Origin: a virus
DNA: 28,946 bases
IMG/VR virus record: IMGVR_UViG_3300020171_000101
Span: 1-28,946 of that record
Strand: one strand, 5' to 3'
Part shown: one piece after another, positions 7,214 to 22,694 of the stretch
How positions within the stretch are numbered: position 1 is the stretch's first letter
Layout: every line of letters starts with the position of its first letter
Translations under genes and position numbers: made by a program
Notes under the pieces: model-generated
Database searches by the model: none
Told to the model about the DNA's origin: nothing
Seen by the model: the letters and a program-made list of their open reading frames with translations, nothing else

Positions 7214-8215
7214 TTATATCATACTATAATTAATACTCAAATATCCGTCTGGCGTAACCTTAATCGCTTCCGGCTTGACTTTCTGAACCTCTTGCGCGAT
7301 AAACCCTATCGTCGGATTTTTCTTGATTGTATCACTAACCCATTTTTTCCAATTCCAGGTATATATCTTTAACCCTTTATATCTCTTGCCAGTATCGGTG
7401 ATATTATCTTTTAACCGCATATCACTTAACATTGATGTCGTAGCCGCACCCGCTACTTGCGGCGCAACTTTCGACACTAACCCCATTAACTGCTCTAAGA
7501 AACTCGGATTATACGTTTGTTCCGGCGGTGTTTGTCCTAATATACTTGCCGCTTGCGCGCCATAACCCATCTTTTCAGCTAATTGCCTTTGTATATCCTG
7601 CATAGACATACCTTGTGAATATTGCTGTCCTGCGCGTTGTGTCTGCCCTAAATTACCTGCTTGCCCTAATATACTATTTAATTCATTGACGTCAAGCCCT
7701 TGCGCGGATAACTCTCTATCTAAATTCTTATACATCAAATCCGCGTCCATTGTGTTTTCCGCAATACGCTGTGATTCGTTTACATCACCAATAGCCGACA
7801 ATCCAGGCGTAGACGATACTAACCCAAGACGGTTATACATATCGTTAGTTGACACACGCTCTCTATCATAACTTTCCTGCATACTGGCTTTTGCGGCATC
7901 TGAATACTGTTTTGTTGCCGCAGAATAATCTTTAACATTTCCACCTGGACTATTTAATTTTCCTAGTATTGTGCTTTCTGCCGCTTTCTCTACTCCTGGT
8001 TGCTGAATATTAAACGCCGGATTCTGGCTGTATGAAGTAGACTTACCTAATCCTTCCATAGTTGTATCTTGCCATTTCTTGCGTAAGTCGGCGTAAGGGT
8101 CATATACGTCTGTCGAGCCTTTATCTTTCGCAAGTTTACTCCCTAATACCGTTCCCGCTACCGCTCCCCAAAATCCCCTCTGGTCTTTCAATATCTCCCA
8201 CAATAGTTTAAACAT
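7214..8215 (-). CDS. ejection/tail protein with prepilin-like leader and S74-type C-terminus
   Basis: The 333-aa protein starts after AAAGGAGAAAGATT. Residues 1-14, MFKLLWEILKDQRG, closely resemble an Flp/type IVb prepilin leader, and are followed by a hydrophobic Gly-rich stretch (FWGAVAGTVLG). The centre is Gln/Ser/Ala-rich and helical, as in podovirus DNA-ejection proteins. The C-terminal 65 residues (SDMRLKDNITDTGK, GLKIYTWNW, IGFIAQEVQKVKPEAI) match the peptidase S74 intramolecular chaperone, which normally self-cleaves after helping a trimer fold. The 100-nt gap upstream (8216-8316) holds only unconvincing short ORFs. Confidence 0.78.
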   Translation of the reverse strand: MFKLLWEILKDQRGFWGAVAGTVLGSKLAKDKGSTDVYDPYADLRKKWQDTTMEGLGKSTSYSQNPAFNIQQPGVEKAAESTILGKLNSPGGNVKDYSAATKQYSDAAKASMQESYDRERVSTNDMYNRLGLVSSTPGLSAIGDVNESQRIAENTMDADLMYKNLDRELSAQGLDVNELNSILGQAGNLGQTQRAGQQYSQGMSMQDIQRQLAEKMGYGAQAASILGQTPPEQTYNPSFLEQLMGLVSKVAPQVAGAATTSMLSDMRLKDNITDTGKRYKGLKIYTWNWKKWVSDTIKKNPTIGFIAQEVQKVKPEAIKVTPDGYLSINYSMI

Positions 8216-8316
8216 AATCTTTCTCCTTTATTAAATTTCGCCATCCTCGTTTTCTCTGATTCCCCTCGGATACGGAAACATAAATATCGCCCAGCATAAA
8301 TAGATAAAATAACATT

Positions 8317-9639
8317 TTAGTTTTTTAATGCTAATATTTCCTCGTCGGATAATCCCAATGCTTTTAATTTATTTTTAGCTGATAGAATATCCTGTTCTTT
8401 TTTAATTTTTTCCTGTTCAATCTGTTGTTGTTTTGTTTGTTGTTTTTGCAATTTATCATTTTTTTCTACCTGCGATAATTTTACTAACGTTCTAACTTTT
8501 ATATAATCAGGTATTGTTTCTACCATTTGTTTTATATGGTTCCCGCCGTCGTCTATAAACTTACCACTATGCAACGGTTGATAAATTTCTTCTTTAGACA
8601 TATCAGGTTTATATTCTTCATTAACTAAAGTAAGGATTGATTCTCCTGTGTCTTTACTCTCTTGTTTCAATGCCAAACAGGTTTCTTTATCAAGTAAAAC
8701 TATTTCTTGTTTGGTTTCATCATAAGAACCGAATGGATGTGGTAACTTATCAAAATCCCCACCATTCCCATACGCGGGATGATCAGGGGCTTGATATGCT
8801 CCAATTATCTCTTTTGTAGTTTTATCAATAAGCAGGAATATCCACATATCATCACCTGAAGCGGTTACATAGCGTTGTTGAGCATAAGAAGTTGCTGACC
8901 CTGCAGTTTTAGTAAAACTTATAGTAGTTAAATACCCGGCGCTTGCAGAACCATAAGCAATCTGGGCATTTGTTGAATCGCCAAGTGGAAGTTTAACTTG
9001 GGGATAAAATCCAAATTCTCCACCAGGTAACGCTATGGTGGCAGGAAAAGATGATGAACTTACCTCTCCCGCCGTTGTTTTGAGGGCAGTAGTATTTACT
9101 AAACCTGTCATCATAGTAGAAGTAATAAGTCCAGAAGCATTTAATACCACCACTCCATTGGCCGCATTGGCCGCCGCTGTTGCTCCTGTGCCGCCATTTC
9201 CGACTGGTAACGTTCCTGTAACCTTCGCTGTCAAGTCTATTGAACCAGCAAGCATAGCATTTGTTATACCCAATGCTTTAACATTCAATCCTCCTGCCGC
9301 GCGCTCTATTGAACTATTGTCTACTTTTACCCTTAATCCACCGTCAGTTATTTCTAAAGCAGGGGTAGTGTCGGAAACGTCCACATAAAGGCTTCCGTCG
9401 GTATGCTGAACTAAACCGTAGCTTGTCCGTACCACATCAGAAGAAATTTTCGCGGCGGTTACCGCATCGTCGGCAATATTCGTGGATTCGATTGCGCCAT
9501 TTAATACAGCCTCGATTTCGGTTGCTCTATTATTTGTAGCGCTGGCCGTTATCAGAGTATTCGCAGTTACTCTCGTAATAGCGAGTGTGCCGCCCTTTTC
9601 GTCTAAAAATATTGCCGTAAACAATTTTAAGAAATTCAT
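8317..9639 (-). CDS. tail fibre protein with prepilin-like leader
   Basis: The preferred start, at 9639, gives MNFLKLFTAIFLDEKG and has AGGAGG 5 nt upstream. The frame is open 22 codons further, to an ATG at 9705 that overlaps the previous stop (TAATG) but has only a weak ribosome-binding site. The N-terminus resembles a prepilin leader ending DEKG. Next come fibre-like repeats (NIADDAVTAAKIS, GGLRVKVDNSSI, TGTLPVGNGGTGATAAANA), typical of trimeric phage fibres. A globular region follows (DMWIFLLIDKTTKEIIGAY), then a long Gln/Lys/Glu coiled coil at the C-terminus. It is about 440 aa and probably a side or central fibre. Receptor specificity cannot be read from it. Confidence 0.72.
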   Translation of the reverse strand: MNFLKLFTAIFLDEKGGTLAITRVTANTLITASATNNRATEIEAVLNGAIESTNIADDAVTAAKISSDVVRTSYGLVQHTDGSLYVDVSDTTPALEITDGGLRVKVDNSSIERAAGGLNVKALGITNAMLAGSIDLTAKVTGTLPVGNGGTGATAAANAANGVVVLNASGLITSTMMTGLVNTTALKTTAGEVSSSSFPATIALPGGEFGFYPQVKLPLGDSTNAQIAYGSASAGYLTTISFTKTAGSATSYAQQRYVTASGDDMWIFLLIDKTTKEIIGAYQAPDHPAYGNGGDFDKLPHPFGSYDETKQEIVLLDKETCLALKQESKDTGESILTLVNEEYKPDMSKEEIYQPLHSGKFIDDGGNHIKQMVETIPDYIKVRTLVKLSQVEKNDKLQKQQTKQQQIEQEKIKKEQDILSAKNKLKALGLSDEEILALKN

Positions 9640-9704
9640 ACCGCCTCCTATTTTTCCATATCGTGGCACATAAGGTCTTTTTCCGTTTATATCAAATAAT
9701 TCCA

Positions 9705-10169
9705 TTAAGAACTCTTTTCATAAAAGAACTGTCCTCTTGCATATTTAGTTCCTGAATTTGTCCACGCTGTCGGAGATAGTTGTTTAGTATCTCGGTAAAC
9801 AGTTACTGTAGACGAAGAAGCAGGTAACCAAGCCATTCCGATTACCCCTTCAACGCCGTTGTCAACCACATCGCAAAGATTCAATGTTGCTACGATTGTT
9901 CCTGCATTTGCATAAGGAAGAGTGAATGTAGTGATAGTCGCATTGCTCGTCCCGTCAAGCCAAAAAGCAACGAATACTGTCTTTCCTATTTTTTTAATAT
10001 AAATTTCTTTTATGCTAAAACTTGCCCAACCTACTATAGTTGATTGAGCAGAATAATCCGTCCATACTCCTTCAATATCTAAAACATCCGCTATCTCAGA
10101 GATAGTAGATTGAAGTTTTAAAATATCATTAGGAGTTTTTAAATCTCTTAAATTTAAGGTAATCTGCAT
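9705..10169 (-). CDS. 154-aa fibre/receptor-binding-like beta protein
   Basis: The N-terminus has a short helix (PNDILKLQSTISEIADVLDIEG). It is followed by a beta-rich domain: WTDYSAQSTIVGWASFS, YIKKIGKTVFVAFWLDGTSN and TITTFTLPYANAG. The alternating hydrophobic-polar strands with GKTVFV..F.L.G resemble the tip domains of phage tail fibres and baseplate proteins. It lies between the Zn-ribbon protein and the larger fibre, and its stop overlaps a possible fibre start, which supports co-assembly. No enzyme motif is present. Confidence 0.6.
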   Translation of the reverse strand: MQITLNLRDLKTPNDILKLQSTISEIADVLDIEGVWTDYSAQSTIVGWASFSIKEIYIKKIGKTVFVAFWLDGTSNATITTFTLPYANAGTIVATLNLCDVVDNGVEGVIGMAWLPASSSTVTVYRDTKQLSPTAWTNSGTKYARGQFFYEKSS

Positions 10170-10478
10170 TTATTCTAACCCCTCTTTAGTATTAGAATGT
10201 TTAACTATCTTTAAATGAGACGCTGTTTTTACAAACCAATTTAAAGTTGCCTGAATTTCCAAGCCCCAATTATTCTTCTGCCGTTCCATAATATCATCAA
10301 GCTGTTCTTGCGTAATTGTAGCAAGACAATCTGAACATATTGCAAATTGCGCCCGGCTTCCATCAGAAAACTTCACCCAAAACTCTAACCCATTATTTAT
10401 AAAAGATGTTTTTTTATCGTCCATTATTTTCTTATTACAAACAGGGCAAATCCCTCTAACTAATATTTCGTTTGTCAT
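10170..10478 (-). CDS. 102-aa zinc-ribbon-like phage protein
   Basis: CPVCNKK near the N-terminus (CxxC at about residues 11-14) pairs with a second CSDC (about 48-51), giving a four-cysteine zinc site. The strand-rich part between them (FWVKFSDGSRAQFAIC) recalls small cargo proteins found in phage tail modules. The C-terminal half is helical and Gln/Asn-rich. The gene nearly abuts both neighbours, one coding the nozzle-like protein and the other a fibre-like protein. The function is unknown. Confidence 0.65.
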   Translation of the reverse strand: MTNEILVRGICPVCNKKIMDDKKTSFINNGLEFWVKFSDGSRAQFAICSDCLATITQEQLDDIMERQKNNWGLEIQATLNWFVKTASHLKIVKHSNTKEGLE

Positions 10479-10479
10479 A

Positions 10480-12024
10480 TTATTCCTTTACCCTAATTCC
10501 TTGCTGCAACGCCTTACTGAGCAAAGAATAATTATATAATAACCAGCTCTTATCTAACCCCGTAGTCCCCATTCTGACCTGTATAGTTTTTCCCATTCTG
10601 CGTATTTCTCTTGTTGTGTCCATATCTGATTCAGAAGAAAAATAATCTTCATCAAACTTCGCCACATCAAACAACGATTGATACCCTAACCCTGCAAGTA
10701 AATTCTGGCTAATGTTTTTTTCTGTGCCGCTGTTTCCATCACAAACTATCTGAATGTTTAAATTCCAATCACCTGTTCTTGATAAGTTTAAATTTATGTT
10801 TTCATACTTTTTTTCTATTGTAGGCACTCCGTGAGAAATCCTTTTGGATACATAAGTCGGGCTGGATGCTGCGCCATCATCATTTGTGCCGGTATCGTTT
10901 TTATACACTTTGCCTGTATACCCGCCATGATAAAGCCACGCTTTCCCGGATACGTTCATTTCTGAAAAACAGTTTGCGCCGATTGAATAAATAAACCAGG
11001 GATATTGCGGCTTCCCCCATTTATCGGCATACGGTCTTGACCAGTCCATTACAAGCGTTCTGTCGTTAGTTGTAGCGCCGGTGGTATGGCTAAAACTGCA
11101 CCAATACTGGTTTCTGCCGTGTAATAAGCCTGATACCGCGTATTTAAGCCTTGAATTTACCCCTTCTTTAACGTAATTCTTGATATTATCTCCACACGGC
11201 GCAACATTATCGCCATTAACCATATAGAAATTAAAGTCTGGAGCTAAGAATATTACCCTGCCGTCAGGAGTTTCTTTCATTACCTGAAAGTTTACCGGCC
11301 CAATCTTTGAGGGTATCCGATATTTTTTGTATAAAGGAGTTGTTCCCCTATACTGCAGCCTAAACAACGCCCATTCTTTGCCAACAATCATATCATCGCC
11401 TTGTTTACACGCGCCGGTAAGTTTGCCCATATCTTCATCGAAGTTGATAAACGATACATACGAACTGTCAATATCGCCTAATGTCGTGCAATAATACAAT
11501 AGACGTGGGTCAACAACCGAATGTAACCAACCATACCTTTGCCATTCCAAACCCCAATCCGCGGTTACAGAAGTCGCAAAAGTCGTAGCTGAACCTGAAC
11601 CAGCCCACGTTCTGGGCAAGTCGTCATCACAAGTTATCATCACGGTTTCATCAAGAGTAAAGAATGTAAACCGTTTGTTTATTCCTTTAGTGGTAGTTAA
11701 TCCTGTAAGAATATTCTGATAAGCGTTTCCAGTATAATTATAAAGTTTTCCATCAGAACCACCGCCGATATAGTAAGAAGCGGCTGAACCTAACGCTAAC
11801 TTATCGTATTGATAAAACCCACACCACGCCGTAGCTGAACCTATGGAAGCGGTAGTTAATGCGGTAAATCCGGGACGAGATGAAATTGCGCCTTGGGGAT
11901 CAGAAAAGATATCTAAACTGGCAGCGTCCCATTCTCCATTATTTATGTTCTCGGAGGAATCTTTCGCATTGACTCCTAAAAAGTTGTCCGCCAGGAGTAG
12001 AGGTTCATATTCTCTAGTTATCAT
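10480..12024 (-). CDS. tail nozzle/stabilisation-like beta-propeller protein
   Basis: This 514-aa protein has repeated blade-like segments with W/Y-rich strands: SSRPGFTALT, YYIGGGSDGKLYNYTGNAYQNI, FTLDETVMITCDDDLPRTW, GRVIFLAPDFNFYMVNGDNVAP and ASPTYVSKRISHG. This is the character of the podovirus tail nozzle or tube proteins (P22 gp10, T7 gp12 type). The start has GAGGT about 10 nt upstream. It follows the 237-aa adaptor-like gene directly, matching the usual adaptor-then-nozzle order. I infer a role in closing the connector and extending the tail; no catalytic residues are visible. Confidence 0.7.
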   Translation of the reverse strand: MITREYEPLLLADNFLGVNAKDSSENINNGEWDAASLDIFSDPQGAISSRPGFTALTTASIGSATAWCGFYQYDKLALGSAASYYIGGGSDGKLYNYTGNAYQNILTGLTTTKGINKRFTFFTLDETVMITCDDDLPRTWAGSGSATTFATSVTADWGLEWQRYGWLHSVVDPRLLYYCTTLGDIDSSYVSFINFDEDMGKLTGACKQGDDMIVGKEWALFRLQYRGTTPLYKKYRIPSKIGPVNFQVMKETPDGRVIFLAPDFNFYMVNGDNVAPCGDNIKNYVKEGVNSRLKYAVSGLLHGRNQYWCSFSHTTGATTNDRTLVMDWSRPYADKWGKPQYPWFIYSIGANCFSEMNVSGKAWLYHGGYTGKVYKNDTGTNDDGAASSPTYVSKRISHGVPTIEKKYENINLNLSRTGDWNLNIQIVCDGNSGTEKNISQNLLAGLGYQSLFDVAKFDEDYFSSESDMDTTREIRRMGKTIQVRMGTTGLDKSWLLYNYSLLSKALQQGIRVKE

Positions 12025-12030
12025 ATTTTT

Positions 12031-12744
12031 TTACCTCGAATAATCATTCCGTTTTGGACTAATGCCTAAATAAGCAGGGTCAATAACAACCCGTTTTTTC
12101 TGTAATGGTTTCTTTAATGCTGCCAAGATTATCCCTAGAATTGAACCTTTAGGGTCGTTAGAGTTCCACCAATCAGTTTTGGCTATCATATAATTGCCGG
12201 TATCTCCTTGCTGAATGAACCGCGCCATACTCACAAAATGAGTAAATGCTGGATAATATTCTTTAGTTATTACAGTTTCACTACTTGCGCTAGTCAAGTC
12301 TACCCACTGCGTTTCAATTTCCATTTCTATTGTGTAAGTGTTATCTGGTAAACAGTTAAACGCTACTTCCCAATACCCTGATTCAATGCGCGTAACGCAA
12401 AACTCGTAAGGTCTGCCGGTATTATCTTCTGGATTTACCCATTCTTTAGATTCACCTATACTAACTTCGTTTAAAGGATACCTATTTGTCCCGTCCACAA
12501 GGCACGCTGCCACAACTTTTTTATATGTTGCCGGTAGATAAGCAGCCCCTGAATACTTATACGCGCTTGCGGTAATGCTGAATGATATATCACTACGTAA
12601 GAACGGCCAGGGAGCTAACATACAAAACTGCGGGCCTTGCTCGTTGATTAAACGATTTACTTTAATTGCCGCGTCTGAAGATTCATCCCCTGTTTTTTCT
12701 ACCACAGATGAGCAAAGTGATGCCCTAGTAATTCCTAATCCCAT
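12031..12744 (-). CDS. tail adaptor-like protein (237 aa)
   Basis: It starts MGLGITRASLCSSVVEKTGD after AAGGGGTGAAAT. A helical N-terminus (SDAAIKVNRLINEQGPQFCM) is followed by a mixed region with LPATYKKVVAACLVDGTNRYPL, and a helical C-terminal segment (YYPAFTHFVSMARFIQQ). This layout and length are typical of podovirus head-tail adaptor or tail tubular A proteins, which sit between the portal and nozzle. The neighbouring nozzle-like gene supports the call. I do not see a sequence signature that proves the family. Confidence 0.6.
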   Translation of the reverse strand: MGLGITRASLCSSVVEKTGDESSDAAIKVNRLINEQGPQFCMLAPWPFLRSDISFSITASAYKYSGAAYLPATYKKVVAACLVDGTNRYPLNEVSIGESKEWVNPEDNTGRPYEFCVTRIESGYWEVAFNCLPDNTYTIEMEIETQWVDLTSASSETVITKEYYPAFTHFVSMARFIQQGDTGNYMIAKTDWWNSNDPKGSILGIILAALKKPLQKKRVVIDPAYLGISPKRNDYSR

Positions 12745-12747
12745 ATT

Positions 12748-13128
12748 TCACCCCTTAATTTTCTGAACAGCTAACTCTAACGCTACATTTATCAAACTAT
12801 CCCCGGCTTCAATCCCTTTTTTAAACGCATAATCCTTAATCTCTGCAAACGCTTGTTTACGTTTATCCTCGTTTTTTAAATCGGTATTCTGCGCTTTAGT
12901 TACTGCAGCAAGCGCAATTTCCTTTAAAGCGCCTATGATAATCTGTTTAGCAATAGGCAGCGCCTCCGCTAAAAAAGACTTAAACACCGCTACAAATTTA
13001 TTGAACAACCCTTGAAAAAATGTTTTTATACTCATATTATTATTATCCTCTCTATTTTTGCCTTCCGGCCAGGGAATTGTTACCTTGAAACTTATCCCCT
13101 TTTTCCAATACTCTTTCCACAAATTCAT
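12748..13128 (-). CDS. 126-aa amphipathic/membrane-active small protein
   Basis: Two starts are plausible. An ATG at 13128 overlaps the upstream stop (TTATGA). An ATG at 13035 (MSIKTFFQGLFNKFVAVFKS) has GAGAGGAT upstream. The shorter form begins with a hydrophobic/basic helix (FVAVFKSFLAEALPIAKQIIIGALKEIALAAV), followed by a charged helix and a final hydrophobic one (DSLINVALELAVQKIKG). Such proteins often act at membranes. Its place beside two other small membrane proteins suggests a lysis or ejection role. The evidence is compositional only. Confidence 0.5.
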   Translation of the reverse strand: MNLWKEYWKKGISFKVTIPWPEGKNREDNNNMSIKTFFQGLFNKFVAVFKSFLAEALPIAKQIIIGALKEIALAAVTKAQNTDLKNEDKRKQAFAEIKDYAFKKGIEAGDSLINVALELAVQKIKG

Positions 13129-13448
13129 AACTTTGCTGTTGCTTTATTTACAATAAACGTTGTATCTTTCGCAACCTTGAAATCAGGCAACTTCTGCGCT
13201 ATTTTATCCGCTACAATACTTACAATCCAACGGGTAAGAAAATTAAGTTTAATCCTGTTCTGTAACTCTAAAATATGGATTGCCTTCATTAAAATAGCTT
13301 TCCTGTCAGATTTGTCTATAAGGTTATCTTTTGCTCTAGCCTCAATCTCTACCACAAGAGGCTCAATGATTTTAGAAAAACCATCAATCCATTTCTTAAC
13401 TAACCACCACGCCGCAAGAACAGCCGGTATTATCGTTTCATATTTCAT
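13125..13448 (-). CDS. 107-aa small membrane protein, holin-like
   Basis: The start follows GGAGGAATT. An N-terminal hydrophobic segment (IIPAVLAAWWLVKKWIDGF) forms one likely membrane helix. The rest is charged and helical (IIEPLVVEIEARAKDNLIDKSDRKAIL). Size and topology fit a phage holin or accessory lysis protein, but no family signature is seen and no endolysin is obvious nearby. The 96-nt gap upstream (13449-13544) has a short open frame, possibly from a GTG, encoding KLTVWGIWRRLITTLYDL, which I do not annotate separately. Confidence 0.5.
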   Translation of the reverse strand: MKYETIIPAVLAAWWLVKKWIDGFSKIIEPLVVEIEARAKDNLIDKSDRKAILMKAIHILELQNRIKLNFLTRWIVSIVADKIAQKLPDFKVAKDTTFIVNKATAKL

Positions 13449-13544
13449 AATTCCTCCGTCAAGTCATACAAAGTAGTTATTAACCTGCGCCAAATACCCC
13501 AAACAGTTAATTTCACCTGCCCGAAGAAATCTTTGTAACCGTAT

Positions 13545-13772
13545 TTATATATTCAGTTTTACCATTTGTGGAAACTGTTTAGCGTGTTCTTTAAGATCTT
13601 GGTTAATACACCATAACACCTCTTTCTCGGCCTGTAGCCAATCTGATAAATGGTCTCCAGGGATATTCCACTGCATCCGAGCTTCGTACATATCCTGCGC
13701 CCGCTCTCGTATTTCCTGTCTTATTTCTTCAGTGATTTCCATTAACATTATATTTGTATTATTTATACCCAT
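13545..13772 (-). CDS. DUF2934-like small protein (75 aa)
   Basis: The core ITEEIRQEIRERAQDMYEAR followed by GDHLSDWLQAEKEVL matches the DUF2934 pattern (I..RAY.ly...G...dHW.qAe.el) found in many bacteria and phages. The function of that family is not established. The ATG at 13772 has AAGGATTA just upstream and overlaps the 3' end of the remnant gene copy by 14 nt. This implies it was originally overlapped with the 108-aa membrane gene before the HNH insertion. Confidence 0.6.
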   Translation of the reverse strand: MGINNTNIMLMEITEEIRQEIRERAQDMYEARMQWNIPGDHLSDWLQAEKEVLWCINQDLKEHAKQFPQMVKLNI

Positions 13773-13866
13773 TAATCCTTAACAATACTTGTCCTTGTTC
13801 TGTTAAATTTTCTATCATTTTTGCGTGTTCAGAACGGACAAAGATTGACATTTGTTCTTCTCTATG
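13759..13866 (-). pseudogene. duplicated 3' end of the 108-aa membrane/coiled-coil gene
   Basis: Read on the minus strand this stretch encodes REEQMSIFVRSEHAKMIENL then TEQGQVLLRINGYK and a stop. The intact neighbour ends IREEHEKMMNCLDEQ then TRVLVQINGYKA. The two align without gaps over about 33 residues, with the identical INGYK end, but differ at about half the positions. The copy has no N-terminal part; a TAA interrupts the frame at 13875. It lies on the far side of the HNH gene from the intact copy, so it looks like the original gene end displaced by the insertion. Confidence 0.75.
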
Positions 13867-13873
13867 ATATACT
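13845..13873 (+). promoter_or_regulatory. sigma70-type promoter of the HNH gene
   Basis: TTGACA (13845-13850), 17-bp spacer, TATACT (13868-13873). The start would be near 13880, just before AAAGGAGAT and the ATG at 13895. It overlaps the displaced gene end, so the HNH gene can be expressed against the surrounding minus-strand transcription. Confidence 0.65.
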
Positions 13874-13894
13874 TAAAACAAAAGGAGATATAAA

Positions 13895-14422
13895 ATGATT
13901 AAAAAATGTCTCATCTGCAAAAAAAGTTTTTATATTAGACCTTGTTATATTAGATATAATAGGGGCAAATTTTGTTCTCGAAAATGTTTCGGGAAATCTG
14001 GAAATTCTCATTGGGAAAAAAATCTTATCCTTTATAAAAAAGGTCATCTTCCATGGAATACTGATAAAAAAGTTAAACAAACTTCTGGCGAAAAACATTG
14101 GAACTGGAATGGGGGAAAATATATATCTACATCTGGTTATGTTTATATCCTTAAACCTAATCATCCTTTTGCCAAAAAGAATGGTTATATTGCTGAACAT
14201 CGTCTTGTTGTGGAAAAGAGGATTGGCCGTTATCTTCAACCAACCGAACGAGTCCATCATATTAATGGCATTAAGGATGATAATAAGTCGCAAAATCTTA
14301 AATTGTTTCCTAATGATGGCGCTCATTATAAATTTCATCATCCTAAACCTCCCCTTAATACTGGAAGAACTCGTTTTAAAAAAGGGCAAATACCTTGGAA
14401 TAAAAATCTTCATGCTTTATAA
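13895..14422 (+). CDS. HNH homing endonuclease with NUMOD3-like motifs
   Basis: This is the only plus-strand gene in the window. Residues 5-31 hold four cysteines (C5, C8, C27, C31) forming a zinc finger. The HNH core is at about 98-150: GYIAEHRLVVEKRIGRYL, then ERVHHINGIKDDNKSQNLKL and AHYKFHH, with His121-His122, Asn130, Asn134 and a C-terminal His. Two NUMOD3-like DNA-binding motifs flank it (YKKGHLPWN at about 47-55 and FKKGQIPWNK at about 161-170). It has a good Shine-Dalgarno (AAAGGAGAT). Its 3' end overlaps tail-to-tail with the 108-aa gene by 13 nt. Homologues cut phage DNA at or near their own insertion site and spread by repair of the break. Confidence 0.9.
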   Translation: MIKKCLICKKSFYIRPCYIRYNRGKFCSRKCFGKSGNSHWEKNLILYKKGHLPWNTDKKVKQTSGEKHWNWNGGKYISTSGYVYILKPNHPFAKKNGYIAEHRLVVEKRIGRYLQPTERVHHINGIKDDNKSQNLKLFPNDGAHYKFHHPKPPLNTGRTRFKKGQIPWNKNLHAL

Positions 14423-14736: not shown

Positions 14737-14738
14737 AG

Positions 14739-14943
14739 TTAATTTATAAGAAACATTCTTCTTCTAGTTTCTTCTCCTGCCGCTTTAAACAAATCATATA
14801 TTGACGGCATTTTAATCATCTGATACGGTGCTATATACAGAGATTGGATTTCAGAGGGGGAAACTGCCTGTTTGAATGTCTGTCTGTTCTCATATATTAT
14901 TCTCCGTCAGTAAATCACTAAAATTCTTTTTCTTGGTGTCCAT
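14739..14943 (-). pseudogene. small gene apparently split by a frameshift
   Basis: An ATG at 14943 opens MDTKKKNFSDLLTENNI and stops at TGA (14890). The +1 frame is open across that point and continues protein-like: YENRQTFKQAVSPSEIQS, LYIAPYQMIKMPSIYDLF, KAAGEETRRRMFLIN, stop at 14739. That second frame has no good start until an internal ATG. A single-base indel, or a +1 shift at AAT-ATA-TGA, would join them into one protein of about 67 aa. No strong ribosome-binding site is seen. It could also be non-coding. Confidence 0.35.
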
Positions 14944-14955
14944 TTAGTTTAATTC

Positions 14956-16950
14956 TTATCTATCTATTACATACCAGGGACAATCTATTCCTGTTGTGTC
15001 AAATGTAGCCGTTGAACCGTTAATCGTCTGAGCGACCTCGGTTGAAACTGAACCCTTGTTGTCGAGTCGATATACTTTTTGACCAGCGGCATACGGAATT
15101 GAGAACGACGTTCCAACCCTCTGAAGTTGCGATGGAACTGTACCCCAATGGAAATGACCAGCTACTCCGACGTATCCCACGTCCCAATAAGCTCCAGTAT
15201 TTTTCCACTTTGCAACGGTAAGAACAACCAGCTTATCGGAAGCCGCAAACGACTGATTGGTAGCTGAATATATTGCCACAACTCCATCAACCGCTGGCGT
15301 CATCGTATACCCATTTAAAGTGATTGCTCTACCGGCTATTGAACCTAAAGCGCAACACACCTGATCAGAAGTAAAAACCAAGTACGTGCCATAATTAGTA
15401 ACCGTATAATTAGTAGCTTTTTGGAATATGTACGCACCCAAACCGGATAGCAACATCTGTTGCGGATTATTCGCTATGTCAAAGTAATTAGAAATTGAAG
15501 TTGACGAAGCTGTGCCAAAATTATATAACCATATTCCATCCCAATCGTATTCTAGGCCATATATAGCCATCATCAAATTACCCTCATATTGGTAATCACT
15601 AGGATAAACGTGGCCATATTCAGTTACAGTAAATGGTTTTGTTTTTGTAGCTTCTTCCTTAGTATTATGTACATTAACCATCCCTAGATTAGCGTCCGTC
15701 AACATACGAGCATTGGTTTTTGAAAAATTCGAATAGCTCCAAGATACACCTGGCGGATCAAAATAAGTATGACAATCATGGACATCGGAATAAGCCTCTG
15801 ATTCAGTTTCCGTAAAGTATGATTGACCACCGCCAACGGTAAGAATTAACGAATCTACTCCAAGGGTGCTTGTCAGATATGTTTTCATGGTGTCGCAATA
15901 ATCCGTGACTTTATTGTGCATAAAGGCAGTTATGTCGGCGACTTGTTGAGCGGGATAATATGCTAAAACTTTTCCGTAGGGTCTATGGAAGGTGAATGTT
16001 GTTAAGTCTTTTTCTGCTTTAATGTAGTAATAATCATCCCCTGGTTCATACGATAATCCAGTCAATCCCCATGCTGTTATGACATCAGACGGAGCAGTAT
16101 AATGTGCCGCAAGCCAAGTGTTCCATAAATCATCTAATTCATCTAAATAAAATTCAGGTGCAGGAGTATTAGTATAAAGAGTACTTGCCCTATCCCAAAC
16201 ACCAGTATCCCACCAGTCGGTTATCCATCTATCTTCATTGTTGATTTCTACCATAGCCACAATAGGGTCATCTTTGTAGGCGATACTTGTATAATCGTTG
16301 GTATGACCTAATAATTTATTGGCGTAGTCTTTTTGTAGCGCAATAAGTCGTGCATCGAATATATCGTAACCTCTGCCAAACAAACCACCTGGTATTTGAG
16401 AATAACTTGTTACCGAATCGCCTACTTCCTTGAATGGACGTGATACCTTAAGTCCTAAATCTAAATATATCCCCTTTGCTTTCAGTTTTGACACAAGATA
16501 ATCAAGGTTGTCCATTCCGGTCGTGCTCATGGTTTGGGATGTTCCGTCATTCTCCAATACGCCTAAAGGATAAAAATTGTCCATGTGATGAAATCTCATG
16601 GCGTTAAATCCAAAGAAGGCAAGATAATCTACCCCATAGTCAGAGTAGGCGTGGGAAGGGACATTGTCAGCGTAGGAATAGTTTGACCCAAAGAATTTAT
16701 ATCGTGAACCGTTGCGGATGAATTGCGTTCCTGATTTTGTGATGGCGTAAGCGTTACCGTCTAAAAGAAAACTGCCCACATTAGCCGGAGATGTAGCATC
16801 CATGTGGGCGTAGTCAAGGGAGAAGTCGTAGAAATCATCACTGGAAACATTTATGCCCGTGCTGGAAACTTTTGAAAAAGTAACACTACCCGAACATAAA
16901 TTAAATGCCAAGAAAAAGGTTATAACAGTTCCAAGCATAATTCTTCTCAT
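14956..16950 (-). CDS. exported clan-A glycoside hydrolase (putative depolymerase)
   Basis: The frame is open upstream to 17028, but the ATG at 16950 gives a signal peptide (MRRIMLGTVITFFLAFNLCSG) and avoids overlap with the upstream gene. Numbering from there, residues about 45-460 look like a TIM barrel of the GH-A clan. FFGFNAMRFHHMD matches the substrate-binding strand, MVEINNE gives the acid/base Glu239, and FTVTEYGH gives the nucleophile Glu444. The C-terminal 190 residues are beta-rich (LNGYTMTPAVDGVVAIYS, YAAGQKVYRLDNKG), as in accessory beta domains. It is too divergent by eye to assign a GH number. It probably hydrolyses a host surface glycan. A cleavable signal on a phage depolymerase is unusual. 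Confidence 0.7.
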   Translation of the reverse strand: MRRIMLGTVITFFLAFNLCSGSVTFSKVSSTGINVSSDDFYDFSLDYAHMDATSPANVGSFLLDGNAYAITKSGTQFIRNGSRYKFFGSNYSYADNVPSHAYSDYGVDYLAFFGFNAMRFHHMDNFYPLGVLENDGTSQTMSTTGMDNLDYLVSKLKAKGIYLDLGLKVSRPFKEVGDSVTSYSQIPGGLFGRGYDIFDARLIALQKDYANKLLGHTNDYTSIAYKDDPIVAMVEINNEDRWITDWWDTGVWDRASTLYTNTPAPEFYLDELDDLWNTWLAAHYTAPSDVITAWGLTGLSYEPGDDYYYIKAEKDLTTFTFHRPYGKVLAYYPAQQVADITAFMHNKVTDYCDTMKTYLTSTLGVDSLILTVGGGQSYFTETESEAYSDVHDCHTYFDPPGVSWSYSNFSKTNARMLTDANLGMVNVHNTKEEATKTKPFTVTEYGHVYPSDYQYEGNLMMAIYGLEYDWDGIWLYNFGTASSTSISNYFDIANNPQQMLLSGLGAYIFQKATNYTVTNYGTYLVFTSDQVCCALGSIAGRAITLNGYTMTPAVDGVVAIYSATNQSFAASDKLVVLTVAKWKNTGAYWDVGYVGVAGHFHWGTVPSQLQRVGTSFSIPYAAGQKVYRLDNKGSVSTEVAQTINGSTATFDTTGIDCPWYVIDR

Positions 16951-16969
16951 GCAAGACCCGAATTTTTGT

Positions 16970-18094
16970 TTATGCGGCATTTGAAATAATCGCATAGTTA
17001 TAAGTTGATGTATCCCCTGCTGTACCAATAACAGAAAATCCCGTTGCTGCTGTTATTGTAACAATATGAGGTTGAACACCGACCGTACCACCAACGGTAT
17101 TTAAAGAAATTATAATTACATCTGTAACAGCTATACTAGTGTTACTAATATCAACAGCTGTTGCCCCATTAAGAACAAAAGTTCCACATTTACCGTTCGC
17201 CCCTTGTTTCAAGACAATTCCCTTTGCAACGGTATTCATTACCAAATTACCTGTAGTTATAGTTACGTCAGTAGCAGGTTTTAGATTTATTTTCCCCAAT
17301 CCTGTCTGTATATTTCCATCAGTATTATCGTGAGAAAAATCAATCCAAGGTGTTGCAATACTTGCGTCTGCTGAGTAGATTCTAAAAACAGGATTTACAG
17401 AAGTCGCAGCAGGGGAACGGTTAGCATTTGCACCATCACCTGTTTCCATAAGTGAAAAATACCCACTTCCTGAAGCATGGTTACAAGGTATACTAAGTTG
17501 TAAATTATCATTTCCTATAGAAGTCATGCCAAAATTAATTTGATATGTCCCTTTGTTCATACTTAAATACTTGTCTATACCTCCTATATATGTTGTGTTT
17601 GTAAAAGAAACTGTTGCATTGGTAGTAGAACTTATCCCAATCGTATTTGATGAGGTTTCAAAATCGAAAGTTACATTTTCATTAACACCGCCACCCTTTA
17701 ACCCCTGTAATGTCACGATACCATTAGCGGCAGTTAACGATGCTCCCGTAGAAGAACCCAAATTTATAGTGGGTATGGTTGCTAATCCGGCTGAACTTAA
17801 AGAATAGACATTCGTACTATCGGAATCTAAAATATTCAGCATATTCGTTGTTGAACCGTCGATTTTCATAGTTCCTGAAAAACCTAACTGACTCCCCGTT
17901 CCTCCAATGGTTAAAACTTTCGTTGTCTTATTGAAAGTTAAATCAGAAGTCCCGCCAAAAGAACCGCCATCATTAAATTGGACTTGAGTGTCGGAACCGC
18001 CGGGGGTGACATCACTCCCCGCCCATCCTCCCTGCATAGCAAAACCAGTTCTTAACACCAACATCATTCCAATCAGTAAAAATAGTTTTTTCAT
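16970..18094 (-). CDS. tail fibre-like protein with signal peptide
   Basis: It starts after AGGGGGATTTAAT. Residues 1-19 (MKKLFLLIGMMLVLRTGFA) are a textbook Sec signal with an A-x-A-like end. They are followed by GGSDTQVQFNDGGSFGGTSD and LTFNKTTKVLTIGG, a motif of phage fibres and virion beta-structure proteins. Further Thr/Ser/Gly-rich strands fill the 374-aa chain, with no C-terminal chaperone visible. It is immediately upstream of the glycoside hydrolase, which suggests a fibre-enzyme pair on the host surface or virion. Confidence 0.65.
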   Translation of the reverse strand: MKKLFLLIGMMLVLRTGFAMQGGWAGSDVTPGGSDTQVQFNDGGSFGGTSDLTFNKTTKVLTIGGTGSQLGFSGTMKIDGSTTNMLNILDSDSTNVYSLSSAGLATIPTINLGSSTGASLTAANGIVTLQGLKGGGVNENVTFDFETSSNTIGISSTTNATVSFTNTTYIGGIDKYLSMNKGTYQINFGMTSIGNDNLQLSIPCNHASGSGYFSLMETGDGANANRSPAATSVNPVFRIYSADASIATPWIDFSHDNTDGNIQTGLGKINLKPATDVTITTGNLVMNTVAKGIVLKQGANGKCGTFVLNGATAVDISNTSIAVTDVIIISLNTVGGTVGVQPHIVTITAATGFSVIGTAGDTSTYNYAIISNAA

Positions 18095-18112
18095 ATTAAA
18101 TCCCCCTATTCC

Positions 18113-18616
18113 TTATAGATTTTTCTGTTGTGATATCTTCATATTAACTATAGTATCAGCGTTATTCGCTCCTGTCCCCGTGATTTTGAATCTTCCATAA
18201 GGAAGAACAACAGGAGATATTGCGACGTGAGACCAAATACCTTCTGTGGTTAGCGTAGTAACTATATCCGACATATTTACTGGCTCTGTATATGTAGCAT
18301 CGGCAACCCCTTCTGTAGTAGGAGACTGGAAACTCTGTTCCAACTCTATTGTCAAGCTGATAGTCCCCGCGCTTGATACGGCATAATACGAAGTTTCAAA
18401 GTATTCCCCTCTATTCAGTTTGAATGAATTTGTGTAAACTGTTCCTGTAGTTGCTACAGCGATATCTACACTCCCATTAGAAGCCTGGGTAACATTAGCC
18501 ACTGTAATATCACGAACATTTTCCGAAACATTACGCCCGCTGTGATCTAATCCAGCAAACACAATATTTGTTATTAATAAAAACCCTAGAACAAGAACTA
18601 AAACTTTACTTTTCAT
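18113..18616 (-). CDS. exported beta-sandwich protein, decoration-like
   Basis: The ATG overlaps the upstream stop (ATGA) and has GAGGGGGAAAAG before it. Residues 1-21 (MKSKVLVLVLGFLLITNIVFA) form a clear signal peptide. The mature part (about 146 aa) is beta-rich: DITVANVTQASNGSVDIAVA, GEYFETSYYAVSSAGTISLT and PYGRFKITGTGANNADTIV. It resembles small capsid-decoration or fibre-attachment domains. No cysteines or catalytic motif are seen. Whether it is on the virion or in the periplasm cannot be decided here. Confidence 0.55.
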   Translation of the reverse strand: MKSKVLVLVLGFLLITNIVFAGLDHSGRNVSENVRDITVANVTQASNGSVDIAVATTGTVYTNSFKLNRGEYFETSYYAVSSAGTISLTIELEQSFQSPTTEGVADATYTEPVNMSDIVTTLTTEGIWSHVAISPVVLPYGRFKITGTGANNADTIVNMKISQQKNL

Positions 18617-18885
18617 CTTTTCCCCCTCTTTTTATCAATCTTTATTTTATTAACAACAACTTTACTTATCCTATCAGTAATCGTCTGCGGCTTCTTTTCT
18701 TTCTCCACTTCAACAATAAGAAGCTGATAAATAACAATTTCTTCCGCGCTGATATGCCCGGATAAAATTATATTGTTATACACTTTTGGTTCAATCTCTA
18801 CCGGCACGTTTTTCCTGAAACAAAACTTTTTGCCATTATACTCTGTCAATATTAAAGGGTCGTGGCTAAGGTTAACAACTAACAT
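18613..18885 (-). CDS. 90-aa basic small protein, unknown
   Basis: The start at 18885 (MLVVNLSHDPLILTEYNGKK) has GGAGGAAAAATC just upstream, which is better than the ATG at 18939. It overlaps the end of the O-antigen-like gene by 7 nt. The first half is strand-rich (FCFRKNVPVEIEPKVYNNII) and the C-terminus is a Lys/Arg tail (NKIKIDKKRGKR). It is similar in character to small virion-associated proteins in tail modules. No function can be assigned. Confidence 0.6.
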   Translation of the reverse strand: MLVVNLSHDPLILTEYNGKKFCFRKNVPVEIEPKVYNNIILSGHISAEEIVIYQLLIVEVEKEKKPQTITDRISKVVVNKIKIDKKRGKR

Positions 18886-19895
18886 GATTTTTCCTCCTGC
18901 GTAATAAAACTTGAGATTATAAACATTAACGTAAACCATAAGCGCGGTATCTCAATTACGTAATCAAACATAGACACCACTAATACCGACACCATTGACA
19001 TCGTAGCTACATTAATTTTAAATAGTTTTCTTGCTTTCCATATCGCGTACCCTAACGCAAACATCCCAATCACACCTAAATCATAACCGAGTAATAAGAA
19101 TAAGTTGAACGAATCCGCGCCCAATGTATGGTAATACGCGCCTAACCCGTGTCCGATAAAAGGTATTTGCCCTATTCCTATAATCACCTGCGGGAATATA
19201 TCGTGTATCCTTACCCTGAACGCTTCAAATATATGTTTATGGAATAAAACTAATAACGCCACACTCCCGACGATAAATACTATTTTTCTGCTTAAAGTTT
19301 TAGCCATTGATAATAAATATAAACCTGTAGTTACTACCGGCGCGAACTGTTTGCCTATTATTGACAGGATAGGTATTATAAAAAATAACGGGCTGATTGA
19401 CAATAGTATCGGTGTAATAATTGCTAAATAATTAAATAGTCTGGGAGTTGTGCCAAATATGCCTCCGCTTAATGCCAGAGAATCTCCTGCTGGGACACCA
19501 AACGGAATAAAGTTTATACAATACCTTTGTACTAGCCATACCGCGCAGTTTATACCAGCAGCCCAAGCTATATATTTATAAAACTGGTTTACCTCACCCA
19601 TATAATTACAAACTAAATTCAATCCTATAAAAAAGAAAAAGACGTTTATTAAAACTCCTAGTGATTGTGTTTGGAATGAATGGATTGCTACACTTAACAC
19701 GCATAATGCGAACATCAAAACTATCCCTTTAGGGATAACTAATCCTATTTTTCTAGGCATAGATAATAACGACGCGATAAACAAAACCATTATCCCGATA
19801 TGAAAGAACATCAACTCGAATTTCTCAGGTTTTATCCCTATCGTATACGCTATTGGAGAGATTAGAAGCAGTAATTTTAATACTTTATCAAACAT
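18879..19895 (-). CDS. Wzy/O-antigen-ligase-like polytopic membrane protein
   Basis: The 338-aa protein has about ten hydrophobic segments, e.g. LMFFHIGIMVLFIASLL, IVLMFALCVLSVAI, FLLLGYDLGVIGMFALGYA and LWFTLMFIISSFI. A large loop carries RVRIHDIFPQVIIGIGQIPF, then GHGLGAYYHTLGADSFNLFL. This matches the Wzy_C/O-antigen ligase arrangement: loop Arg, a GxGxG turn, and the His/Asn region before a G-x-x-G membrane helix. Family members polymerise or ligate lipid-linked glycans at the inner membrane. Phage versions (D3 Wzy-beta type) change host O-antigen. It sits inside the capsid/tail gene block rather than with early genes. No Shine-Dalgarno is free: the purine run is inside a hairpin 8 nt upstream. 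Confidence 0.7.
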   Translation of the reverse strand: MFDKVLKLLLLISPIAYTIGIKPEKFELMFFHIGIMVLFIASLLSMPRKIGLVIPKGIVLMFALCVLSVAIHSFQTQSLGVLINVFFFFIGLNLVCNYMGEVNQFYKYIAWAAGINCAVWLVQRYCINFIPFGVPAGDSLALSGGIFGTTPRLFNYLAIITPILLSISPLFFIIPILSIIGKQFAPVVTTGLYLLSMAKTLSRKIVFIVGSVALLVLFHKHIFEAFRVRIHDIFPQVIIGIGQIPFIGHGLGAYYHTLGADSFNLFLLLGYDLGVIGMFALGYAIWKARKLFKINVATMSMVSVLVVSMFDYVIEIPRLWFTLMFIISSFITQEEKSC

Positions 19896-19903
19896 AGTTT
19901 GTT

Positions 19904-19933
19904 GAAGGGCGAAGGTTTTACCCCTCGCCCCTC
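19904..19933 (-). promoter_or_regulatory. 12-bp hairpin before the O-antigen-like gene
   Basis: On the minus strand GAGGGGCGAGGG (19933-19922) pairs with CCTTCGCCCTTC across a 6-nt GTAAAA loop. Ten pairs are Watson-Crick and two are G-U. The stem ends 8 nt before the ATG at 19895 and contains the only purine-rich (GAGGGG) sequence near that start. No U-tract follows. It may lower translation of the membrane protein or protect the upstream capsid mRNA. Confidence 0.5.
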
Positions 19934-19945
19934 AATCCTTATTTG

Positions 19946-20395
19946 TTAATAATCGTATACAACAGTTACAACCCCTGTCCCGTTTACAGCACTCGTATCG
20001 GCATAGATGCCAGTTGCGAATGGAGCGCCACCCAAAGGAAGCACTATTGTGTTTGAAGCTGTACCCATTTTAATATCAAACTTTGGTGTTCCTGTTGCAG
20101 TCAACGCATCGTAAACCTGAACATAATCCGCCTCAGTTACCCCGCTAAAAACCAATGTCTGAATATTGCAAGCGCCGGTATAAATTAACCCATCGCCAGT
20201 TTGTAAAGTAACAGCTTTAGACTTACCAACTGTATTTACCGCACCGCTTGAGCTGACCTCTGCTGCTGTTCCAGATGAAGCATCAGTAATTGAAACATAC
20301 TGCTCTGTTCCACCCCCGATAGACCTAGAGGAATCAGCAAAACTTACTCCCGCTAATCCCATAACCAAGAGGGCAATAAGAAATAACCTTTTCAT
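19946..20395 (-). CDS. exported capsid-associated/decoration-like protein
   Basis: The start at 20395 has GGAGGATAAT before it and gives a signal peptide (MKRLFLIALLVMGLAGVSFA) cut before DSSRS. The mature part (about 129 aa) is beta-rich: EQYVSITDASSGTAAEVS, IYTGACNIQTLVFSGVTEA and DYVQVYDALTATGTPKFDI. This style resembles virion-surface proteins located next to capsid genes. It directly follows the major capsid gene (14-nt gap), the usual place of a decoration protein. A Sec signal on such a protein is unexpected. Confidence 0.6.
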   Translation of the reverse strand: MKRLFLIALLVMGLAGVSFADSSRSIGGGTEQYVSITDASSGTAAEVSSSGAVNTVGKSKAVTLQTGDGLIYTGACNIQTLVFSGVTEADYVQVYDALTATGTPKFDIKMGTASNTIVLPLGGAPFATGIYADTSAVNGTGVVTVVYDY

Positions 20396-20409
20396 ATTAT
20401 CCTCCATGA

Positions 20410-21732
20410 TTATATTGTTCCTGGGTTAGGTGAAATACATTTGCAGATAACTAAGCTTGCGCCCTTGCCTCTGCGTTTATCAATCCTGACTTTGTGTCCG
20501 TAATACGCTTCAACGCCAAGCCCTATTTGTGCGCCATAATCATCTTTATCGCCAATAGGTGTTACATTCTCCGGCATAGCGCGGAAAACTGCTTGTGCTC
20601 CAAACCCGATTACGTTTGCTACATCCCTCTGTGTAACCAATGCGCCTGCTGAATGCTGTGCATCAGTCGTTCCAGAAGCGCCTCTTGTCACTGTGGTAAA
20701 CGTGCTGACTGTCTTACCGGTATAAGTCATTATTTCACTGCCAATCTGTAAAGAACCAGTTGACGAGAAAAATAATGTGTAATTTGCTTTGGTATTAGTA
20801 TCAGCAGCCACACCAACATAAACAGTTGACGCGGACGTTACTAATGTTGCCGATAAGGTTGTTTCCGGCCTTAATGCTGTACCTTGAGGAATCGGGAGTA
20901 ATGAGTATCTAGGATACAACACCATGTTGCGATAGATACCAGCTGCTCCTTCAAACAACGGATGCATCTGTCCTGAACCTTTAAATCTTTCCCAAGCTTC
21001 TTTAACAGTATTAACAAAAGAAGTGTTTTGGTTGAGATAATACTCTTCCATTTCTCCGTAACAAATACCGAAGATAGGAATTGTCCTGCCATTTGTTTTT
21101 GTTACGCGTAAAGGAATTGCGCCTTGACGAATCAGAGCCATACGGATCATGTTAATTTCAGTAGGCCCGAAATAATCGCTGTCAGTTGAGTTCAAAGAAG
21201 CTAATGCTGTTTTGCCATTTGCGTAGATTGTATCAACTTTAGCACTATCCAAAATAGCGATATCCGTATCATTATCAAACTTCCTGCTGAACCAATCTTT
21301 TAAGAGAGTTCCTGCTTGCTGAACCATCTCGAAATTGGCTTGCTTTGTAGCTTTCTTGGTAACTGCAACGGCATGACGAACATAATCTGCGGTAACTGTA
21401 AACGAACCAATCCCGAGTTTTTCTTCATTGCCCTTTAATACACTTTCCCCTGTAACGCCAGTACCCATTAATTGCTCAATGGTATTGAACGTAATCATAT
21501 CGCCATTGGCTCTCAACTGTCCTGTTTTGTCTATGATGGGCATAAACGACCCTTCTTTCCCTGACAACGAACCCCAGAACGATTCTCTATTGCCATCTGC
21601 TACAACGCCAGGGGCAAAAAATTCGGGAATCGCCGCATCAATCTCTGCAATGCCGGTAACGGTCATTTCAGTCGTCCATCCGCGGATATCGAGAAGCAAG
21701 GAAAGAAATAATAAACGTAGTTTCTTTAACAT
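20410..21732 (-). CDS. major capsid protein, N4-gp56 family, with leader and inserted domain
   Basis: The start at 21732 has AAGGAAATAAT before it. Residues 1-18, MLKKLRLLFLSLLLDIRG, look like a prepilin leader with Glu at +4 after the Gly. From residue 55 the N4-gp56 pattern is clear: NGDMITFNTIEQLMGTGVTG, then KGNEEKLGIGSFTVTADYVR and TKKATKQANFEMVQQAGTLL, with KDWFSRKFDNDTDIAIL after it. Near residues 290-368 a separate module is inserted (SLQIGSEIMTYTGK, TRGASGTTDAQHSAGALV), of a type that recurs in many phage virion proteins. The C-terminus resumes the capsid fold (GFGAQAVFRAMPENV, YYGHKVRIDKRRGKG). The scaffold-like gene lies immediately upstream. Confidence 0.85.
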   Translation of the reverse strand: MLKKLRLLFLSLLLDIRGWTTEMTVTGIAEIDAAIPEFFAPGVVADGNRESFWGSLSGKEGSFMPIIDKTGQLRANGDMITFNTIEQLMGTGVTGESVLKGNEEKLGIGSFTVTADYVRHAVAVTKKATKQANFEMVQQAGTLLKDWFSRKFDNDTDIAILDSAKVDTIYANGKTALASLNSTDSDYFGPTEINMIRMALIRQGAIPLRVTKTNGRTIPIFGICYGEMEEYYLNQNTSFVNTVKEAWERFKGSGQMHPLFEGAAGIYRNMVLYPRYSLLPIPQGTALRPETTLSATLVTSASTVYVGVAADTNTKANYTLFFSSTGSLQIGSEIMTYTGKTVSTFTTVTRGASGTTDAQHSAGALVTQRDVANVIGFGAQAVFRAMPENVTPIGDKDDYGAQIGLGVEAYYGHKVRIDKRRGKGASLVICKCISPNPGTI

Positions 21733-21749
21733 ATTATTTCCTTTCATTT

Positions 21750-22694
21750 TTATTGATTAACACTTTTTTGGTCATACTCTGCTCTTTTTTCACTAGGCAA
21801 AGCAAAATACTCTGCCTGACTTAACTTCCGAAAACCACCACTCCCACCTGCCGGAGCGCCTGCGCCTCCAACCGGAGCTAATATTCTTTTATTAGCTTTC
21901 CCGATTTCAACACCTTCTTTTTTCGCGGCTTGAATCATACCAGGAAACACACTTAGTTCTCTTGCAGCTTTACGCGTAGCGGAATACTGTTTCAACGGAT
22001 TCTTGTTATACTCGGTTTCCCAAATCTCGGTTGCCCTGTCGTATAACGCCTTATTGAAATTGGGATTAGTAGGTTTACCGTCTTTAAACTTCGGGTTAAT
22101 CATCGGGTAATCTTCCTCTAAATCGTTTTCAACTTGGGTCTTTTCCGCTATAAACTGCTGCATTTTACTATGTTCTTCCTTAGTCATTTTTTCTCTGCCG
22201 TCATACTGCTCATCAAAGATGTCTTGCACAAGTAACCGCATACTCTCAAGCACTTTAGGTTCAAACAATCCCTTATGCTCATCCGTAAACCGTGATTTCC
22301 TTGTTTCTTTTTGAAGTGCCTCTAACCTAATCTGTCCGTCCTCTGTCTCAACGGCTCTGATTCCAGAACCTTCAAGCGCCTTGCGTATGGAACCAAGATT
22401 CCTCTCGGTTAATCCTGCTTTGGTCTTGAAATTCCCGTATTCACTCTGTGTTCTCTGATACACTTCAAGAAGTTTTGTTGCTGCCTCTTCCGGGTTATCG
22501 CCAAACTCTCCGAATCGGGGTGTTACTTCGGCTGCTGCTGCGGAGCCGTCCCCGGCTTGTCCTGCATCACCCGAACCATTATCTAAAACGATGGCATTAG
22601 CATTACCTGTTCCCGCGCCTGCGGGGGCTGCTGCTCCTGCATCTCCCTCTTCACCTCGTTGGTCTAACCACAATTTCCGTAGAAACTTTAACAT
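21750..22694 (-). CDS. scaffold-like protein with prepilin-like leader
   Basis: The start at 22694 has AAGGAG 9 nt upstream; the frame extends 14 codons further but without a ribosome-binding site. Residues 1-14, MLKFLRKLWLDQRG, are leader-like. A Gly/Ala-rich acidic segment follows, then helical, highly charged sequence (NPEEAATKLLEVYQRTQSEY, DEQYDGREKMTKEEHSKMQQ). The C-terminus has a Gly-rich linker and a terminal helix (FRKLSQAEYFALPSEKRAEY). Acidic helical composition and the position just before the capsid gene are typical of scaffolding proteins. No protease motif is visible. Confidence 0.7.
   Translation of the reverse strand: MLKFLRKLWLDQRGEEGDAGAAAPAGAGTGNANAIVLDNGSGDAGQAGDGSAAAAEVTPRFGEFGDNPEEAATKLLEVYQRTQSEYGNFKTKAGLTERNLGSIRKALEGSGIRAVETEDGQIRLEALQKETRKSRFTDEHKGLFEPKVLESMRLLVQDIFDEQYDGREKMTKEEHSKMQQFIAEKTQVENDLEEDYPMINPKFKDGKPTNPNFNKALYDRATEIWETEYNKNPLKQYSATRKAARELSVFPGMIQAAKKEGVEIGKANKRILAPVGGAGAPAGGSGGFRKLSQAEYFALPSEKRAEYDQKSVNQ

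Follow-up and report, generated by a model that had tools for sequence, protein, structure and literature searches.

Prepilin-like leaders on several virion proteins of a phage family and a phage-encoded A24 peptidase that probably removes them

Phage head maturation proteases cut N-terminal propeptides that are carried by several virion proteins, as in the case of the T4 capsid-targeting sequence. Among A24 peptidases, the archaeal enzyme PibD acts on non-pilin substrates, namely sugar-binding proteins with class III signal peptides. A class III (type IV prepilin) signal peptide has a hydrophilic leader of 6–26 residues ending in Gly, and in known prepilins the Gly at −1 is critical for processing while Glu5 is dispensable (PMC4471445). 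In the Flp/Tad system, TadV cuts the Flp leader at GXXXXEY (PMC10934763). Here, we describe the IMG/VR virus record IMGVR_UViG_3300020171_000101 (28,946 bases, analysed over its whole length and called the window below), which is probably a tailed-phage fragment. Four of its virion-type proteins, with unrelated bodies, share an amphipathic N-terminal leader ending in D-x-[RK]-G, and a prepilin-type peptidase is encoded among its head genes. The leader, head and adaptor genes under discussion all lie on the minus strand. We consider it probable, from the sequences of the window and its relatives, that several virion precursors carry a prepilin-like leader which the phage-encoded A24 peptidase cuts at the inner membrane.

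The four leaders begin at 21732, 22694, 8215 and 9639, exactly where the first-pass annotation had placed them. The major capsid protein (MCP) starts with MLKKLRLLFLSLLLDIRG (21679–21732), with a predicted cut before Trp, and continues into a body (20410–21678) that matches Phage_capsid_3 (PF13252, E 4.7e-13) and the major head protein group phrog_334 (E 5.8e-21). The scaffold-like protein starts with MLKFLRKLWLDQRG followed by E (22653–22694), a leader that a position matrix picks out in the window and that is conserved in relatives; its body (21750–22652) lies between the portal and peptidase genes and the MCP gene, as in Pam5. In the S74/ejection-type protein, the leader MFKLLWEILKDQRG, then F (8174–8215), precedes a body (7214–8173) with an S74 domain (PF13884, E 3.5e-11) and matches to phrog_6121 and phrog_4287 (DNA ejection). 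The fibre-like protein has the leader MNFLKLFTAIFLDEKG, then G (9592–9639), and a virion body (8317–9591) assigned by position, with a predicted mature N-terminus of the form x-[TA]-L-[AS]-[IM]-T-R in a gap-free alignment. The names scaffold, fibre and adaptor are inferred from gene position and order, paralleling Pam5 and KLEP18-1; searches with the scaffold-like and fibre-like proteins gave no Pfam or PHROG match. Once the leaders are removed, no two of the four bodies match (blastp best E 0.17), in line with the earlier claim that these proteins are otherwise unrelated.

A Shine-Dalgarno-like stretch lies directly upstream of each of the four leader start Met codons. In the MCP, scaffold-like and fibre-like genes, the longest open reading frames (ORFs) extend further upstream than the leader, yet translation more likely starts at the leader Met, which is conserved and has a Shine-Dalgarno of its own. 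The hydrophobic/basic stretch followed by D-x-[RK]-G is found in 4/31 window genes versus 1/896 control genes, and 0.05 occurrences per window are expected after shuffling. A matrix trained without the window puts exactly the four leaders on top of its protein starts (19.5–32 bits; next 9.0).

Scanning viral contigs of IMG/VR with alignments of the capsid, portal, peptidase and nozzle proteins yielded about 30 contigs of related phages, all metagenomic, including the 41–42 kb records G006, G007, G010, G020 and G049; a wider, final capsid scan returned only contigs already in the set. Capsid identity to the window ranges from 87 down to about 55%. A leader ending in Gly is present on 19/19 capsid proteins with a readable N-terminus, the window included. 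The scaffold-like protein, the MCP and the S74/ejection protein (8/8 orthologues) always have a leader where read, and the fibre-like protein has one in 8/9 orthologues. Altogether, the window and its relatives contain 58 leader copies, 53 of them distinct, of 12–21 residues. The Gly at −1 is found in 58/58 and is encoded by GGA (26), GGT (16), GGC (10) and GGG (6), so that its conservation across four different codons must lie at the protein level. Asp stands at −4 in 49/58 leaders, Glu or Gln at −3 in 48 and Arg or Lys at −2 in 37. Aligning the N-termini over related phages, a check proposed in the first-pass annotation, thus finds the leader conserved in divergent relatives with an invariant Gly. 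The leaders are strongly amphipathic (moment 0.51 versus 0.33 ± 0.02 when shuffled), and their mean hydrophobicity is 0.36 versus −0.24 in Flp/Tad leaders (P 3e-7).

When a position matrix is trained on just the capsid and scaffold leaders, it recovers the leaders of the S74, fibre-like and adaptor-type proteins and of a sixth protein in the larger genomes, where no other protein start reaches 10 bits. On 855 kb of control DNA (bacterial and outgroup), the same matrix finds one start at or above 10 bits (11.9). G020 encodes six leader-bearing proteins, and G006 and G007 encode five apiece. If the matrix is built from Flp leaders alone, the phage leaders rank high, yet are not cleanly separated. 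The start of the nozzle protein (ENFLG) was dropped as a leader candidate, as it does not fit the leader matrix, and so was a concerted change at −4, suggested by N in both L005 leaders, as other genomes mix D, N and C. In G010, the protein after S74 begins with MWWLGSILGNSKDRG/NEVRTG behind a Shine-Dalgarno (L031:7172, G010:27172; slashes here and below mark a cut or mature start), a possible further leader missed by the matrix. G020 also encodes an 84-aa protein (L042–L044, reverse strand, 16445–16699) with a canonical prepilin-like KRKVG/FTLPEIMLVIILIGFLSSMFIP, the sole clear one in the larger genomes. In L005, the capsid gene is split right after the leader exon, its first, by an intron-like insert that contains a homing-endonuclease-like ORF (L005:3623–4415).

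Orthologues without a leader serve as natural experiments. The adaptor-type tail protein has a leader in G006, G007, G020 and L135 and none in the window (12031–12744, M/GLGITRAS), G010, L137, L138, L143 and G049. Leaderless adaptors start with M/GLGITRAS, M/GLGLIRGS, M/SLFITRAS, M/GLYINLAS or MLGITQAS, while leader-bearing ones read DEFG/GLGITRAS and similar at the junction. The fibre-like protein of G010 is likewise leaderless, with M/AALSMTR versus DEEG/GTLAITR elsewhere. In both proteins, the leaderless orthologues start exactly at the predicted post-Gly cut, and the mature N-termini align without gaps. Because methionine aminopeptidase usually removes Met before Gly, Ser and Ala and keeps it before Leu, a cut leader and a leaderless start would leave N-termini of the same length. 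In the tree built from the nozzle and adaptor proteins, the adaptor leader needs three changes by parsimony, at least two of them forced by well supported branches. Since leaderless orthologues begin at this site and the leader has been gained or lost repeatedly, the leader appears to be an add-on that ends at the predicted cut site.

The candidate enzyme is a 121-aa protein (23458–23823) encoded between the portal and scaffold genes, in line with the earlier placement of a prepilin-type peptidase in this operon. It matches PF01478 at 53 bits versus a curated cut-off of 26.5, and 15/15 aligned relatives also match the family. Its predicted catalytic residues D17 and G63-G64-D65 are invariant in 15 relatives; the first Gly of the GxGD motif is replaced, most often by Cys. 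An AlphaFold2 model (pLDDT 93) fits the GxGD membrane protease fold: its best structural match is FlaK (3s0x), with Z 10.4 (next 5.1) and a root-mean-square deviation of 2.9 over 118/121 residues, although the aligner's notes say that helical bundles may reach such Z by shape alone. Foldseek against BFVD listed two viral proteins of ~140 aa (TM 0.68–0.78, E 0.05–0.2). An I[PSH]N motif (D-x5-I-P-N type) is present in 15/15 phage peptidases, and IPN or VPN in 17/17 enzymes adjoining flp genes; 72/80 cellular GGDVKL frames fetched have IPD instead and are PilD-sized where read. By its sequence, the phage enzyme belongs to the CpaA/TadV subtype without a methyltransferase domain, and it is predicted to be a polytopic membrane protein.

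The peptidase gene lies between the portal and scaffold genes in every record that spans the site; matches came from 17/19 and 4/4 records and from the 41-kb G049. Records without a peptidase match do not cover the site, L010 ending before the gene and L020 starting after it. The co-variation of leader and peptidase raised in the first-pass annotation therefore holds, in that every family record spanning the site has both, and leaders without a peptidase were sought in the family and not found. The phage peptidases form one clade (100/99) on long branches, apart from the sampled cellular enzymes. Scanning viral contigs with just the window protein gave no match; with the alignment, 20/20 matches were contigs of this phage family or showed the same neighbourhood of genes. 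A tblastn search of 50,697 phage records with two phage peptidases and a CpaA returned nothing, while a PilD query returned 18 matches, many resembling bacterial sequence. PHROGs held no clear peptidase match, and the search for solved structures found none related by sequence. The nearest cellular peptidases in a genome-collection scan, mostly PilD-sized proteins of Omnitrophota and Deltaproteobacteria at ~30% identity, name no host. No capsid relatives were found in 84,980 genomes, so this search points to no host either.

The leaders with their Gly, the co-occurring enzyme gene with its catalytic Asp residues and the orthologues that lack just the leader make it likely that the leader is cut after the Gly and that the phage enzyme does this. 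In the mechanism we favour, the MCP, the scaffold-like, S74/ejection and fibre-like proteins and, in some members, the adaptor and one more protein would be made as precursors with a Flp-prepilin-like leader of 12–21 residues. The leader would form an amphipathic, mostly basic helix, as a rule ending in D-[EQ]-x-Gly, and would bring the precursors to the inner membrane, where assembly would start. The A24 peptidase would then cut after the Gly at the cytoplasmic face, freeing the proteins and leaving the mature N-terminus needed for assembly. Membrane targeting by the leaders is plausible, as they are amphipathic and more hydrophobic than Flp leaders and the enzyme is a membrane protein; that they gather precursors there for assembly is a weaker proposal. 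Since the leader itself would be the membrane-binding part, it would recruit the precursors to the inner membrane, and the cut would release them; such a leader would explain both the missing transmembrane tract after the Gly and the higher leader hydrophobicity. In the full picture, capsid, scaffold, ejection and tail precursors anchored by their leaders would come together as a tailed-phage particle on the inner membrane, and the phage-encoded prepilin peptidase would free and activate them; this is tentative, quite possible yet short of probable. We know of no precedent for such a membrane-coupled route of virion maturation and came across none in the searches.

Several points weigh against processing by the phage enzyme. 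In known A24 substrates, a hydrophobic tract follows the Gly; the phage proteins lack it. Known leaders are hydrophilic (PMC4471445), while the phage leaders are more hydrophobic. The leader is optional on the adaptor and fibre-like proteins. For the peptidase model, Foldseek by itself returned nothing significant, and the caveat on the FlaK match applies here as well. Measured against the class III plan, the leaders have the expected length and terminal Gly, but the hydrophobic stretch of ~21 residues with Glu5 that should follow the Gly is missing in the MCP, scaffold-like, fibre-like and adaptor-type proteins, the S74 proteins are only partly hydrophobic there, and the leaders are not hydrophilic. 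By sequence, they are thus not canonical class III signal peptides. The first-pass idea of a Flp/Tad-like leader cut by a phage CpaA/TadV-type enzyme is supported by the complete co-occurrence, invariant Gly, catalytic Asp and leaderless orthologues, though not as a canonical class III design.

Other explanations were weighed on the same evidence. The motif is short and was spotted by eye, as might be expected of hydrophobic starts that happen to hold D-x-R-G through chance or composition; the shuffling and control counts, the matrix control and the conservation in divergent relatives already refute this origin, and its probability is practically nil. A more substantial alternative, still unlikely, is that the leader stays in the virion proteins uncut, as an amphipathic membrane anchor or assembly hook, and that the peptidase has another substrate. 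The strong amphipathicity and the hydrophobicity above that of Flp leaders suit such an anchor, and the cut is a prediction from sequence. This explanation, however, accounts neither for the invariant terminal Gly nor for orthologues lacking exactly the residues up to it. In addition, up to and including the conserved GNEE motif, the mature MCP as predicted counts 86 residues, compared with 79–80 in three leaderless outgroups. No other conserved substrate for the peptidase is apparent, because a canonical prepilin-like frame occurs in only one larger genome examined.

The first-pass annotation had also offered a tag into or onto the prohead that is removed at maturation, as in the T4 capsid-targeting sequence. 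As such a tag would have it, the leader is present without exception, where read, on the scaffold-like protein, the MCP and the S74/ejection protein, all of them head or internal proteins. The idea is weakened and now seems very unlikely, since the leader is also carried by the fibre-like and, in some phages, the adaptor proteins (roles inferred from position). Moreover, the enzyme that would cut it is predicted to be a polytopic, integral membrane protein, unlike a prohead-packed protease. Finally, a host prepilin peptidase may be the cutter; the phage enzyme would then supplement it or alter host pili. Prepilin peptidases are often promiscuous (PMC4471445). Set against this are the constant place of the phage gene in the head operon of every covering record and the single, well supported clade of the phage enzymes, and we give a host cutter very little credence. 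If cleavage by the phage A24 peptidase is right, a pilus-maturation system of leader and prepilin peptidase has been co-opted to build tailed-phage particles, and a membrane aspartyl enzyme joins the proteases that mature such particles. A24 substrates would extend to proteins without a transmembrane tract, and phage assembly at the inner membrane would become directly testable. The leader matrix and the peptidase gene would also be simple signatures for finding more such phages.

The surrounding genes place the window near the SU10/Pam5-like podoviruses in portal (PF23899), MCP (PF13252) and compared gene order. The terminase large subunit (PF04466, E 9.3e-18) is encoded at 26443–27765 and the portal protein (SU10_portal, PF23899, E 5e-12) at 24383–26431. 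In L004, the terminase ORF has 772 aa versus 449 aa in L002, with an intein-like insert (L004:831–3149). Downstream of the MCP gene, the genes at 19946–20407, 18113–18616, 16970–18094 and 14956–17028 begin with Sec-type signal peptides, and such genes are likewise found in G006, G007, G010, G020 and G049; periplasmic export of virion or late proteins would be odd. The first of them (19946–20407) sits at the position of the Pam5 cement gene, and its model, of middling quality, has no clear fold match. A protein with multiple membrane spans (18879–19895) has the same position in the relatives read, and one orthologue matches the O-antigen ligase family Wzy_C weakly (E 9e-5, below cut-off). A small plus-strand ORF (22824–23042) with the repeated peptide FQSTHPHGVR resembles a short-repeat array.

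Compared with known systems, this phage family shares the order terminase-portal-scaffold-MCP with Pam5 and KLEP18-1, and their MCPs are distantly related (about 25% identity). Unlike it, the outgroups with distant MCP relatives (KLEP18-1, Pam5, POI1126 and RHph_Y1_10) show no leader on the proteins read, and a peptidase is not among the annotated genes of their head regions. Head maturation proteases are similar in that several virion proteins share a propeptide and the enzyme gene lies near those for portal and scaffold; they differ in that the enzyme here is a predicted membrane aspartyl protease, unlike those packed in the prohead, would cut after Gly and would include fibre-like and adaptor proteins among its substrates. 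Like PibD, the phage enzyme would be an A24 peptidase acting on non-pilins, although PibD substrates are built on the class III plan, hydrophobic tract included, and the phage ones are cytoplasmic virion proteins. The papers searched contain no account of a prepilin peptidase that acts on capsid proteins of a phage, and no pilus machinery genes were noticed in the phage genomes read. Relative to Flp/Tad, the phage substrates are virion proteins without GXXXXE(Y/F) or a transmembrane tract after the Gly, the leaders are more hydrophobic, and the enzyme mostly has 120–140 aa versus 172–237 aa for those adjoining flp genes. Nevertheless, the phage enzyme resembles TadV, CpaA and FppA as a small A24 peptidase without a methyltransferase domain and with an I-x-N motif. 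The leaders are also alike in length and ending: the Flp pilins fetched in the same analysis carry leaders such as MERIKKFFKDESG/VTAIEY, and Flp endings such as KDESG, EDESG and KDEEG stand beside KDESG, FDEEG and KDERG in the phages, all with Gly at −1.

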